Source of the DNA: Actibacterium ureilyticum
Lineage (GTDB): Bacteria > Pseudomonadota > Alphaproteobacteria > Rhodobacterales > Rhodobacteraceae
Reading direction: 5' to 3'
DNA: 64,000 bases
Assembly: GCF_002285435.1 (NCBI RefSeq)
Contig: NZ_NSBT01000026.1
Span: 62,001 to 126,000 of the forward strand
Position numbers and translations under genes: made by a program. This document shows positions 8,857-13,666 of the stretch, piece by piece (position 1 is the stretch's first letter; each line of letters opens with the position of its first letter). A model generated the notes under the pieces. The model made no database searches, was not told the DNA's origin, and worked only from the letters and a program-made list of their open reading frames with translations.

Positions 8857-10593
8857 TCAATTCCAGCAGCTGACCAGAACCGTCATGTCGGCGGCCAGGC
8901 CGGTCAGATCCTCGGGCGCCAGCGCGGCGGCGCTTTCGGCGGCGGCGGGTGTCACGCCATGCGCCGACAGGAAATCGGCGATCGCGGGCACCTTGGCGGC
9001 AAAGCTGACATCGCCGGGCAGTTGCTGTGCGCCGGTGTCGGGGGCCAGCAGCACGCCCATCACCGCGCCCTGGGTGTCAAAGACCGGGCCGCCCGCATCG
9101 CCGGGGGTGGCCGCCAGCGCCAGGCGCTGCAGCTCGTCCTCGCCACGCAGACCGCGCAGGTCGGCCAGTTGCCCAAAGGTCAGCACCGGCAGATCCAGCG
9201 CCCCGCCATAGGGGAAACCCGCCACCGCCACATCGCTGTTCAGCCGCGGCACGCTGGCGCGGAACGCGGCATAGGCCGGCGGGGCCAACGGCTGTTTCGG
9301 GGTCAGAACCGCCAGGCCCAGCAGGTCGTCGCGCGCGGCGACCTCGGCCTCGTATTCGTCGGCGATGGTGACGCGGGTGCATTGGCCCAGAACCTCGGTC
9401 GTGGTCAGCACCGCGCCGTTTCCGTTCACGTAAAAGCCCGAGCCGGTGACCGTGGGCCGCCGCACCTGCAACCCCGAGACCAGATCGACCGCCTGGCTTT
9501 CGGTGGTGTGGCCGACGGAATCGCCCAGCACGACGCCCGCGACGGGGGCAAAGCTGTCGCGCATCACCTTGACCGCGTGTTGCATCAGCTTTTCGTCACC
9601 CGGCGGCCAGGCAAGGGTGAAGCCCTTGATCTCGTCCCCGTCCAGCCGCGCGAAGGTATAGGAATGCAGCGCCGCGCTTTGCCCGGTCAGTTCGAAACTG
9701 TTGCGGCCGCGTTCGCGCGCGCCGTCGACCGGAACGATTTCCAGCGTCTGCATGATGTCATAAAGGCCGTAAAGCGTGTCCTGGTTGCCCGCCTGGCTGA
9801 TCAGCAGGACCTGAACGCCGCTGCCATCCTTGGCGGTGTAATGGGCAAAGGGCGCCTCGTACCGGTCGAACGCCACCATCGCGGCAGGCATGGACAGCGA
9901 TACGCCGGCGGTCGTGTCCTCGACCACCCGCATGCCCAGCTGCGCCAGCGCATCGTCCATCCCCTTCAGCAGGGCGGCGCGCTGTTTCGTGGTCAGGATG
10001 CCGGTCGGCTCCAGCCCCATGGCGGTCTGATAGGCGGCCATCGCCCGGCGGGTGCCGGGACCGAAGGCGCCGTCGATGGCCGCGTCATAGAACCCTTCCC
10101 ATTGCAGCGCCTCTTGCAGGCGCATCCGTGCCTCACGCGGAAGATCGCGTTCGCTGCGCCGCGCCTCGGCCGGGGTTTCATCGGGCAGCGGCGCGGGGTT
10201 GGCGGGCATGGCTACCTGCGGCACCGCCGGTGTCGGGTCGACCTGCGGCGTCACCGGGCGCAGGTTGGCACCCACGGGCCAGAATTGCTGGCCGTAATCC
10301 CGGCTGAAGGCCACGAAACTGTCGCGCGGGATCAGCAGCTCGCGCTTCAGCTCGCCCATCTGCGCCAGCGCGTCCTCGCGGGTGTAGGGGCCCAGGGCAA
10401 TCGCGTACCAGCCCGTGCTCATCCGGAACCCGTTCACCTGCGGGAACGCCCCGGCATAGGCGCGCGCGCGGTCCTGAGCCTCGCGCAGGGTGGAATGCGC
10501 CTCGATCTGGACCCAGGCGGTGGATTGCGCCTGTCCCATTGTGCCCGCAAGCACGCCGAACAAAAGGCAGAAGATGCCGATCGTTTTTCTCAT
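8857..10593 (-). CDS. Secreted SPOR / peptidoglycan-binding protein with degenerate trypsin-like domain
   Basis: A 578-residue exported protein. A signal peptide (about 1-23, ending TMGQAQ) is followed by a SPOR-like repeat (about 25-105), a proline-rich linker, a peptidoglycan-binding helical domain (about 160-215; GFYDAAIDGAFGPGTRRAMAAYQ) and a C-terminal trypsin/HtrA-like fold (about 385-560). All three catalytic positions are changed: the TNAHVV histidine position is Glu400 (VLTTTEVL), the DLALL aspartate position is Gly (LLGLAVL) and the GNSGGP serine is Ala500 (GDAGGPV). It should bind septal or denuded peptidoglycan in the periplasm but not cleave peptide bonds. The ATG at 10593 begins the signal peptide; the upstream frame has no support. 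Confidence 0.82.
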   Translation of the reverse strand: MRKTIGIFCLLFGVLAGTMGQAQSTAWVQIEAHSTLREAQDRARAYAGAFPQVNGFRMSTGWYAIALGPYTREDALAQMGELKRELLIPRDSFVAFSRDYGQQFWPVGANLRPVTPQVDPTPAVPQVAMPANPAPLPDETPAEARRSERDLPREARMRLQEALQWEGFYDAAIDGAFGPGTRRAMAAYQTAMGLEPTGILTTKQRAALLKGMDDALAQLGMRVVEDTTAGVSLSMPAAMVAFDRYEAPFAHYTAKDGSGVQVLLISQAGNQDTLYGLYDIMQTLEIVPVDGARERGRNSFELTGQSAALHSYTFARLDGDEIKGFTLAWPPGDEKLMQHAVKVMRDSFAPVAGVVLGDSVGHTTESQAVDLVSGLQVRRPTVTGSGFYVNGNGAVLTTTEVLGQCTRVTIADEYEAEVAARDDLLGLAVLTPKQPLAPPAYAAFRASVPRLNSDVAVAGFPYGGALDLPVLTFGQLADLRGLRGEDELQRLALAATPGDAGGPVFDTQGAVMGVLLAPDTGAQQLPGDVSFAAKVPAIADFLSAHGVTPAAAESAAALAPEDLTGLAADMTVLVSCWN

Positions 10594-10742: not shown

Positions 10743-12167
10743 ATGCCGGACCGTTTCAAATCGCTCGACCCTGACAATTGGCGGGATTTCCGCGCCACGG
10801 CGCACCGGATGCTGGATGCCGCGCTCGACCGGATGCAGGGGGCGGGCGACGGCCGGGTCTGGACGCCCTTGCCGCCGGACGCCAAGGCGCGCCTGACCGC
10901 GCCGGTGCCGGTGGACGGGCAGGGCGCCGATGCGGTGGCCGACCAGATCGCCGCGCTGCTGCCCTTTGGCGTGGGCAACACCCATCCGCGCTTTTTCGGC
11001 TGGGTCCACGGGGCGGGCACGCCCGGCGCGGTGCTGCCCGCGGTGGCGGCGGCGGCGATGAACGCCAATCTGGGCGGGCGCGATCACGGCGGGATCTATG
11101 TCGAACGACAGGTGCTGGACTGGTGCCGCGCGCTGATGGGGTTCCCGGCGGACAGCGGCGGGCTGATCGTGTCGGGCACCTCCATGGCCACGATCATCGC
11201 GCTGAAGGCCGCGCGCGACCGGCGGACGGATTTCGCCAGCCGCCGCGACGGGGTGGGCGGGCTGCGGCTGGTCGGCTATGCCTCGGCCCAGGCGCATTCG
11301 TGCAACGCGCGGGCTTTCGACATGCTGGGGCTGGGCAGCGACGCGCTGCGCGCCATCCCCTGCAATGACGCGTTCGAAATGGATCTGGACGCGCTGCGCG
11401 CTTCCATTGCCGCCGACCGGGCCGCCGGGCTGACCCCTTTCGCGGTGATCGGCACGGCGGGGGCGGTGAACATGGGCGCCATCGACGATCTGGACGGCAT
11501 CGCCGATATCTGTGCCGAACAGGGTATGTGGTTCCATGTCGACGGCGCCATCGGCGCGGCGGGGCGGCTTTCCGACCGGCTGCGCCCGCGCCTGAGCGGG
11601 TTCGACCGCGCCGATTCTCTGGCCTTCGATTTTCACAAATGGCTGCATGTCGCCTATGACGCGGGCTGCGTTCTGGTGCGGGACGAAGGCGCGCTGCGCC
11701 GTGCATTCTCTGACCGGCCCGATTATCTGGCCCAGAACGAGCGCGGGCTGGCGGCGGGGGGCTTCTGGCCGGTGGATTACGGCCCCGAGCTGTCGCGGGG
11801 CTTTCGGGCGCTGAAGATCTGGGCGCATTTTCTGGAACATGGCACCGATGCCTTGGGCGCGGCCATCGACCGCAATTGCGATCAGGCGCAGTATCTGGCC
11901 GCGCGGATCGCCCGCGAACCGGCGCTGGAGCTGCTGGCGCCCGTGCCCTTGCAGATCGTCTGCTTCCGTTATGGCGAAGACGACGCGCTGAACGACGCCA
12001 TTGTAGTCGCCTTGCAGGAAAGCGGTGTCGCCGCGCCCTCGACGACCAAAATCAACGGCAAGCTGGCCATTCGCGTGAACCTGACCAACCACCGCACCCG
12101 GGCCAGCGATCTGGATCTGCTGGTGGATGAGGTGCTGCGCTTGGGCGAAAGCCTGACCCGCGATTGA
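10743..12167 (+). CDS. PLP-dependent group II amino-acid decarboxylase
   Basis: A 474-residue pyridoxal-phosphate enzyme of the aromatic-amino-acid/histidine/glutamate decarboxylase group. Evidence: N-terminal THPRFFGWVHGAGTPGAVL, the substrate region, IVSGTSMATIIAL for phosphate binding, SAQAHSCNARAFDMLGL, the cofactor Asp in WFHVDGAIGA and the Schiff-base lysine in LAFDFHKWLHV. Such enzymes remove the carboxyl group of an amino acid to give an amine; some relatives are amine-producing and some are aldehyde synthases. Substrate cannot be told from the sequence. It is divergent from the SPOR protein and 51 bp upstream of glyQ, and probably has its own promoter. Confidence 0.85.
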   Translation: MPDRFKSLDPDNWRDFRATAHRMLDAALDRMQGAGDGRVWTPLPPDAKARLTAPVPVDGQGADAVADQIAALLPFGVGNTHPRFFGWVHGAGTPGAVLPAVAAAAMNANLGGRDHGGIYVERQVLDWCRALMGFPADSGGLIVSGTSMATIIALKAARDRRTDFASRRDGVGGLRLVGYASAQAHSCNARAFDMLGLGSDALRAIPCNDAFEMDLDALRASIAADRAAGLTPFAVIGTAGAVNMGAIDDLDGIADICAEQGMWFHVDGAIGAAGRLSDRLRPRLSGFDRADSLAFDFHKWLHVAYDAGCVLVRDEGALRRAFSDRPDYLAQNERGLAAGGFWPVDYGPELSRGFRALKIWAHFLEHGTDALGAAIDRNCDQAQYLAARIAREPALELLAPVPLQIVCFRYGEDDALNDAIVVALQESGVAAPSTTKINGKLAIRVNLTNHRTRASDLDLLVDEVLRLGESLTRD

Positions 12168-12218: not shown

Positions 12219-13139
12219 ATGGCCGACAAACCCCGTTCCTTTCAGGAGATCATCCTGCGGCTTCAGACCTACTGGGCCGAGAAGGGCTGCGCGATCCTGC
12301 AACCCTATGACATGGAGGTGGGCGCCGGCACCTTTCACCCCGCCACCACCTTGCGCGCGCTGGGGTCCAAATCCTGGGCGGCGGCCTATGTCCAGCCCTC
12401 GCGCCGCCCGACCGACGGGCGTTATGGCGAGAACCCCAACCGCTTGCAGCACTATTACCAGTATCAGGTGCTGATCAAACCCAGCCCGCCCGATCTGCAG
12501 GACCTGTATCTGGGCAGCCTGGAGGCCATCGGCATCGACATGGATCTGCACGATATCCGCTTTGTCGAGGATGACTGGGAATCCCCCACGCTGGGCGCCT
12601 GGGGCCTGGGGTGGGAGGTCTGGTGCGATGGGATGGAGGTCAGCCAGTTCACCTATTTCCAGCAGGTCGGCGGGCATGACTGCAAGCCCGTGTCGGGCGA
12701 GCTGACCTATGGTCTGGAACGGCTGGCAATGTATGTTCTGGGCGTCGATCACGTGATGGACATGCCCTATAACGACCCGCAGACGCCCATCGCGCTCAGC
12801 TATGGCGACGTCTTCCGCCAGACCGAGGGTGAATACAGCCGCTGGAACTTCGACGTGGCCAACACCGACGTGCTGCTGAAGCAGTTCGAAGAGGCCGAGG
12901 CCGAATGCGAGGCGATCCTGAGCCACCCGTACGAGGACCCGAAAACCGGCAAACGCATCGTCATGGCGCACCCGGCCTATGACCAGTGCATCAAGGCCAG
13001 CCATCTGTTCAACCTGCTGGACGCGCGCGGCGTGATCTCGGTCACCGAACGCCAAGCCTATATCGGGCGTGTGCGGGCGCTGGCCAAGAAATGCGCCGAT
13101 GCGTTCGTCCAGACCGAAGCCGGGGGCTGGCAGGCGTGA
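12219..13139 (+). CDS. glyQ: Glycyl-tRNA synthetase alpha subunit
   Basis: A 306-residue class II aminoacyl-tRNA synthetase subunit, the catalytic half of the bacterial alpha2beta2 glycyl-tRNA synthetase. It is highly conserved: [43 protein letters not shown], then [28 protein letters not shown] and [20 protein letters not shown]-like text. Its stop overlaps the GTG of the next small gene (13136), which in turn overlaps glyS, so the three are translationally coupled. Confidence 0.98.
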
Positions 13140-13666
13140 CCGGTAAACTTCTTGCAGGTGGCATCGTGCTTTTCGCGCTGATCTTCGGCATCGGGGTCTA
13201 TTACACCCAGGTCTATGCCTATTACGAACGTGTGTCGGACACCGCGCCGCAGGCGCATGTCATGCTGACCTCGGTCGTCAGCGGCGCGCCGGAGGAGGTG
13301 ATCGCCGACGGGTTCGAAGGCATCGACGCCGAAAGCTCGCCCATCCGGTTCCGGGCCTGTTTCACCACGCCTATGTCGCTGGCGATGCTGTCGGAAACCT
13401 ATGTCATCCATGACGACCCGGTGCCGCTGATCGCGCCCGGCTGGTTCGACTGTTTCGACGCCAAGACCATCGGCGCCGCGCTGGAAAGCGGCGAGGCGCT
13501 GGGGTTCCTGGGGCAGGAAAACATCACCTATGGCGTGGACCGTGTCGTCGCCGTCTTTCCCGATGGGCGTGGCTATGCCTGGAACCAACTCAATCATTGC
13601 GGCGAGGTCGTCTTTGACGGCAAGCCCGCGCCCGAGGGCTGCCCGCCCGCGCCGGAGAATTATTGA
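13136..13666 (+). CDS. Membrane-anchored DUF6446-type protein between glyQ and glyS
   Basis: A 176-residue protein starting at a GTG that overlaps the glyQ stop (GTGA) and ending with a TGA that overlaps the glyS ATG. One N-terminal hydrophobic segment (about 6-26; [19 protein letters not shown]) anchors it, leaving a soluble periplasm-facing domain with Cys residues ([27 protein letters not shown]). I recognise it as the Rhodobacterales family DUF6446. No function is known and its fixed position inside an aminoacyl-tRNA synthetase operon is unexplained. The track of upstream in-frame sequence is glyQ out of frame, so the GTG is the only sensible start. Confidence 0.8.

Follow-up and report, generated by a model that had tools for sequence, protein, structure and literature searches.

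To our knowledge, the role of a bacterial trypsin-fold pseudoprotease has been worked out in few cases. For the HtrA (Do) family the criterion is a C-terminal PDZ domain, and FtsN and DamX are SPOR-domain proteins of the division site. The nearest precedent that we found for the 578-aa protein described here is MamO, the magnetosome pseudoprotease, which in the available part of its description binds metal and promotes MamE-dependent proteolysis (PLoS Biol 2016, PMC4794232). As far as that part goes, the two proteins share an alphaproteobacterial Trypsin_2 domain with a degenerate triad, an apparent descent from active proteases and, likely for the protein described here, a non-catalytic role that has been kept; MamO differs by its transporter domain, by two surface His residues that bind metal and by its tie to active MamE (PMC4794232), whereas the present protein has wall-binding domains, and no active partner of its sub-family was found in its genome. 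The best sequence and fold matches were to the MarP family (Rv3671c) and to HtrA, DegS and DegP, which have the same trypsin fold but retain the catalytic triad that is missing here; the 578-aa protein also lacks a PDZ domain among its seven Pfam matches up to E 1 and scored 35.6 bits against the MarP family profile (NF033740), below the cut-off of 250. FtsN and DamX would share with it a SPOR-like fold, whose first strand here carries an invariant Gln, the remainder of the protein being different.

The gene lies on the minus strand of the window, by which we mean the whole 64,000-nucleotide stretch of DNA that was analysed, with an ATG at 10593 and a stop codon at 8857-8859 (codons checked). 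The encoded protein consists of a signal peptide, a SPOR-like domain, a PG_binding_1 domain, a PsbP/Mog1-like domain, a trypsin-fold domain and a C-terminal tail:

8857..10593, minus strand: whole gene, four domains and signal peptide, 578 aa (ORF with codons checked)
10528..10593, minus strand: signal peptide, residues 1-22 (read by eye: Arg/Lys, hydrophobic stretch, small residues before Gln23)
10306..10527, minus strand: SPOR-like domain, residues 23-96 (sub-threshold Pfam match, predicted model, orthologue matches)
9970..10134, minus strand: PG_binding_1 domain, residues 154-208 (Pfam; 44 of 44 aligned orthologues)
9544..9939, minus strand: PsbP/Mog1/DcrB-like domain, residues about 219-350 (fold match, best Z 12.3, PsbP)
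8953..9462, minus strand: trypsin/HtrA-fold pseudoprotease domain, residues 378-547 (Pfam, MarP-type chains, predicted model)
9394..9396, minus strand: Glu400 codon, catalytic His position (alignments)
9379..9381, minus strand: Cys405, which probably pairs with Cys576 in a disulfide (154 of 154 full-length rows have both)
9316..9318, minus strand: Gly426 codon, catalytic Asp position (alignments)
9094..9096, minus strand: Ala500 codon, catalytic Ser position, in GDAGGP (alignments)
8860..8952, minus strand: C-terminal tail, residues 548-578, helix and strand, with Cys576 at 8866-8868 (predicted model, alignment)

The preliminary description of this DNA had read the gene as a trypsin/HtrA-like frame combined with SPOR and peptidoglycan-binding domains, and our analysis bears out most of this layout. 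Pfam Trypsin_2 (PF13365) matched residues 384-514 over the whole profile (1-144 of 144) with 64.3 bits against a cut-off of 27.6 (E 2.7e-17), and in the predicted model the trypsin-fold domain superimposed on DegS over 160 residues (Z 20.3, rmsd 2.2), so the frame is predicted to be kept. The peptidoglycan-binding assignment also stood, PG_binding_1 (PF01471) matching residues 154-208 with 51.1 bits against a cut-off of 23 (E 1.5e-13). The SPOR assignment had to be softened to ‘SPOR-like’, because the match to PF05036 (residues 23-83) reached 18.7 bits, under the gathering cut-off of 21, and was recovered at E<0.01 in 17 of 44 aligned orthologues, as against 44 of 44 for both PG_binding_1 and Trypsin_2; the region was nevertheless modelled as strand-helix-strand-strand-helix-strand, and its Gln29 and Gly68-Pro69 are invariant in 44 of 44 rows. 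To the earlier layout we add the PsbP/Mog1-like domain as a fourth domain. Modelled alone with 44 sequences, residues 212-358 gave a pLDDT of 94.3 and matched Mog1 as well as PsbP from cyanobacteria (Foldseek E 3.6e-6) and from spinach (Z 12.3, rmsd 3.4, 131 of 147 residues, 8% identity); the region had no Pfam match up to E 1, and the likeness, at about 10% identity, is one of fold, not of sequence family. The full-length model had a mean pLDDT of 88.7, with 418 of 578 residues at pLDDT ≥90, and a pTM of 0.60, at which the relative placement of the domains is unsure; the structure matches listed for it cover residues 378-547 only. The signal peptide suggests that the protein would be exported, and PG_binding_1 and the SPOR-like domain likely attach it to the cell wall.

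Alignment to solved MarP-type chains and to intact relatives placed E400, G426 and A500 at the positions of the catalytic His, Asp and Ser, as the preliminary description had proposed; the two residue numbers that it gave, 400 and 500, are right. That description had also suggested that orthologues be checked for the same three substitutions. In an alignment to the family profile we read 154 full-length rows (144 distinct, some genomes being represented twice), a set made up of the best matches listed and of hand-picked divergent members, which leans to close orthologues; none of them has His-Asp-Ser, and the three catalytic residues never occur even two at a time. An acidic residue stands at position 400 in 122 of the 154 rows (E 75, D 47, Q 9, A 9, S 5, K 3, T 2, N 2, H 1, gap 1); Gly is found almost always at position 426 (G 148, gap 2, and N, D, K and P once each), and Ala prevails at position 500 (A 108, V 14, T 14, S 6, others 12). 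With several residue types at 400 and 500, nothing points to a specific new chemistry in the former active site. A triad elsewhere in the domain, the counter-case that the preliminary description had considered, was not seen, as the trypsin-fold domain holds no conserved His: no column has His in 15 or more of 44 rows, and the only His residues after residue 339 are H362 and H545, at which His occurs in one and two of the 44 rows, respectively. The same lack of a conserved His, judged by conservation and not by alignment to MamO, indicates that a surface di-His metal site of the MamO type is missing. The 578-aa protein would thus not be expected to cleave proteins.

The frame around the lost triad is itself highly conserved. 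Within the loop G-D-x-G-G-P, the rounded frequencies among the 144 distinct rows are 98% for G498, 100% for D499, 100% for G501, 99% for G502 and 98% for P503. At three positions the 144 distinct inactive rows are fixed differently from the active relatives (Asp426 to Gly, Gln490 to Arg and Asn499 to Asp), the active relatives having mostly Q at 490 and N at 499. All 154 full-length rows have both Cys405 and Cys576, which in 44 of 44 rows are the only Cys past residue 15 and hence the sole Cys of the mature protein; they probably form a disulfide that ties the tail back to the domain.

Upstream of the pseudoprotease gene and in the opposite sense lie glyQ and glyS, an arrangement seen for each of them in 73 of the 81 loci compared (80 besides that of the window), with a small protein gene between them that was clustered in 66 of the 81. 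The neighbouring genes, including the decarboxylase-like gene, were named by reading their sequences:

10743-12167, plus strand: pyridoxal-dependent decarboxylase-like gene, between the pseudoprotease gene and glyQ (sequence reading)
13136-13666, plus strand: small protein gene with a GTG start, overlapping the end of glyQ and preceding glyS (sequence reading)

The position beside glyQ-glyS is conserved, yet these genes do not form one transcription unit with the pseudoprotease gene; they give no functional lead and suggest no wall function. The 25 commonest clusters of neighbours in the 81 loci do not include the decarboxylase-like gene; in these loci glyQ lies at a median distance of 130 bases. 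The small protein gene occurs in two copies at loci L280 and L285.

Among 198 genomes of the same bacterial family, the window's own genome included, 165 matched the query at E<1e-45, some of these with partial or divergent proteins, and 33 gave only weaker matches (both counted by eye). The search of gene order drew 149 genomes, all of them from this family, and the named orthologues belong to Roseobacteraceae and Paracoccaceae. A class-wide draw of 289 genomes gave some match in 238, with the full-length protein only in the four genomes of the draw that belong to the same family; outside the family the best matches had E values of 3.5e-31 and weaker and covered chiefly the trypsin fold and tail, or PG_binding. 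Variant copies were found in several lineages. At the glyQ locus of six genomes of genus g24 and of genome G244, a gene divergent from glyQ keeps the N-terminal domains, and the locus has no trypsin-fold match; the g24 proteins (L258-L262 and L284) consist of two SPOR-like repeats, PG_binding and the Mog1-like part. The dead domain is therefore dispensable in these seven genomes. Genome G023, which has such a protease-less copy, carries an active relative elsewhere. Conversely, an ORF of genome G094 matches the profile only from position 203 on and thus keeps the trypsin domain without the first two domains. Seven further genomes that lack a strong match were all read; each has glyQ, and the 9-14 kb taken around it hold no homologue beside it. 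One copy in a draft genome (L196, G157:C40:1464-2831) has two stops and may represent a sequencing fault or a broken gene.

To compare constraint between the domains, we pooled Nei-Gojobori counts over 17 non-overlapping pairs of 80-98% identity, some of them near saturation, and obtained dN/dS values of 0.087 for the SPOR-like domain, 0.113 for PG_binding, 0.097 for the Mog1-like domain, 0.117 for the trypsin fold and 0.162 for the tail. The tail thus changes fastest, followed by the dead trypsin domain, which is slightly ahead of the three N-terminal domains. The domain is under purifying selection and nearly as constrained as the others, in agreement with the selection that the preliminary description had envisaged.

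The closest active proteins are alphaproteobacterial Trypsin_2 proteins with a C-terminal Cys tail (such as L148-L160, L174-L178, L207 and L228-L236), for which we found no family name. They share the same domain from end to end and, in most rows, the same Cys pair, and the inactive clade sits among them in the tree; they differ by an intact triad in 38 of 46 rows and by N-terminal parts that often differ. The 46 rows in which the trypsin domain was the main match comprise these 38 His-Asp-Ser rows, one His-Asp-Thr row, one fragment and six partial members of the inactive clade; both Cys, the second in the tail, are present in 37 of the 46. The 38 rows include one DegP-like protein and one gene fetched twice, and 36 of them are distinct when the DegP-like row is set aside. 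A tree of 86 rows united the 43 inactive ones in one group with 100% support (triad columns included), on a long stem of 1.5 changes per column, nested with 98% support in a set with eight active proteins from the same bacterial family. When nine triad-region columns and six rows were removed, 39 inactive rows remained on one side of a 99% branch. Both trees come from quick searches, take their root from two DegP-like rows and carry SH-aLRT support only, and in them the loss of the triad appears to map to one long branch among the active relatives.

One active relative has the layout of the pseudoprotease itself. L207, from genome G162, has an intact His-Asp-Ser triad and, by the full profile, the same domain order, with 56 bits for the SPOR-like part, 71 bits for PG_binding and the Mog1-like part together and 151 bits for the protease domain; against the Mog1-like profile alone it scored 14 bits. 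L207 does not lie beside glyQ, as its 11-kb contig has no glyQ match, and the 9 kb around glyQ of G162 hold no homologue. Since L207 could be a paralogue or have been acquired by transfer, it does not prove that an active ancestor stood at the glyQ locus. Among ten other active proteins of the sister type, the PG_binding stretch was matched in nine, two of which also matched the SPOR stretch (L175 with 18 bits, and L235 with one 55-bit stretch from SPOR on), and neither stretch was matched well in L233, whose locus is cut; the Mog1-like part was not detectable by profile in any of the ten.

We consider it fairly probable that the gene encodes a conserved, exported, peptidoglycan-anchored periplasmic pseudoprotease of one bacterial family, in which the dead fold is used as a binding module. 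Retention of the fold for binding and not for cleavage, as the preliminary description had suggested, is likely. In the mechanism that we propose, the SPOR-like and PG_binding_1 domains would keep the protein attached to the cell wall, where they may bind denuded septal glycan; a septal position is suggested by analogy with SPOR domains elsewhere, whose septal location is stated in the available part of a paper on Dinoroseobacter vesicles that names the SPOR-domain lipoprotein Dshi_0924 (PMC7901474). The PsbP/Mog1-like and dead trypsin-fold domains would serve as binding modules by which a periplasmic partner is recruited or held, the C-terminal tail of the trypsin fold being tied back by the putative Cys405-Cys576 disulfide. 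More tentatively, the protein might be a family-wide, wall-anchored periplasmic sensor or adaptor derived from an ancient dead HtrA-like protease: a peptidoglycan-bound active ancestor with the layout of L207 would have lost catalysis once, on the long branch, and its former peptide-binding cleft, steadied by the tail disulfide, would now capture a partner at sites of wall remodelling, with the dead form common and the active form rare in this bacterial family.

Whether the trypsin-fold domain itself contributes to binding bears on a competing reading, in which it is a mere structural cap or spacer and the SPOR-like, PG_binding and PsbP/Mog1-like parts do the work. The survival of the N-terminal domains alone at the same locus in seven genomes speaks for this reading, but we regard it as unlikely, given that its constraint (dN/dS 0.117) comes close to that of the other domains, that R490 and D499 are fixed in it at positions where active relatives mostly have Q and N, and that in G094 it is retained in the absence of the first two domains. 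It is rather improbable that the 578-aa protein serves to regulate one specific active protease from its own sub-family, in the way that MamO is tied to MamE. The precedent for active and inactive pairs set by MamO, in the available part of its description (PMC4794232), would favour such regulation, and at least 21 of the 198 same-family genomes (counted by eye) carry an active sub-family member at E<1e-38, at least 15 of them alongside a strong query match. Against this, no intact member of the sub-family was found in the window's genome, and among the best 15 candidates per genome, 150 of the 165 strong-match genomes showed no active member at E<1e-38. The lack of an intact member in the window's genome makes a fixed active partner of that kind unlikely, and together with the 150 genomes it led us to reject a fixed pairing with an active copy of the sub-family. 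The three other trypsin-fold ORFs that we found in this genome (L225-L227) all have His-Asp-Ser and, named by reading, comprise two DegP-like ORFs and one apparent fusion of reverse transcriptase and protease; a general DegP-type protease might still be the partner of the pseudoprotease.

Catalysis kept or regained through other residues has very little probability in our judgement. Single catalytic residues do occur among the 154 rows (Ser at 500 in six, His at 400 in one and Asp at 426 in one), but no row combines two of them, the domain has no conserved His, and the two Cys are shared with active relatives and probably disulfide-bonded. We find it equally hard to believe that the gene is decaying and heading for loss: the domain or the gene has been lost in some lineages and the draft genome G157 has the copy with two stops, but strong matches occur in 165 of 198 genomes, the locus is conserved in 73 of 81 and dN/dS is near 0.1. 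The preliminary description had taken the decay of the active site to be recent. This view has to be given up, since the loss of the triad is common to all 154 full-length rows read, maps to one long branch with 99% support, and since the dead domain is under purifying selection.

Relative to MamO, the probable wall-anchored pseudoprotease would combine a repurposed trypsin fold with wall-binding domains. In the titles and abstract openings covered, which take in few subscription journals, we recognised no description of this family. The Trypsin_2 match alone would invite annotation as a ‘serine protease’, which is very probably wrong here. The pseudoprotease has a strong match in 165 of 198 genomes of its family and is under strong selection, and an active relative of the same layout, L207, makes the change from cutter to binder directly testable. 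Separately, the apparent fusion in the window's genome (L227, G000:C18:605112-605534) lies in a 538-residue frame that combines an apparent reverse transcriptase with a trypsin-like domain, the latter with an intact His-Asp-Ser triad.
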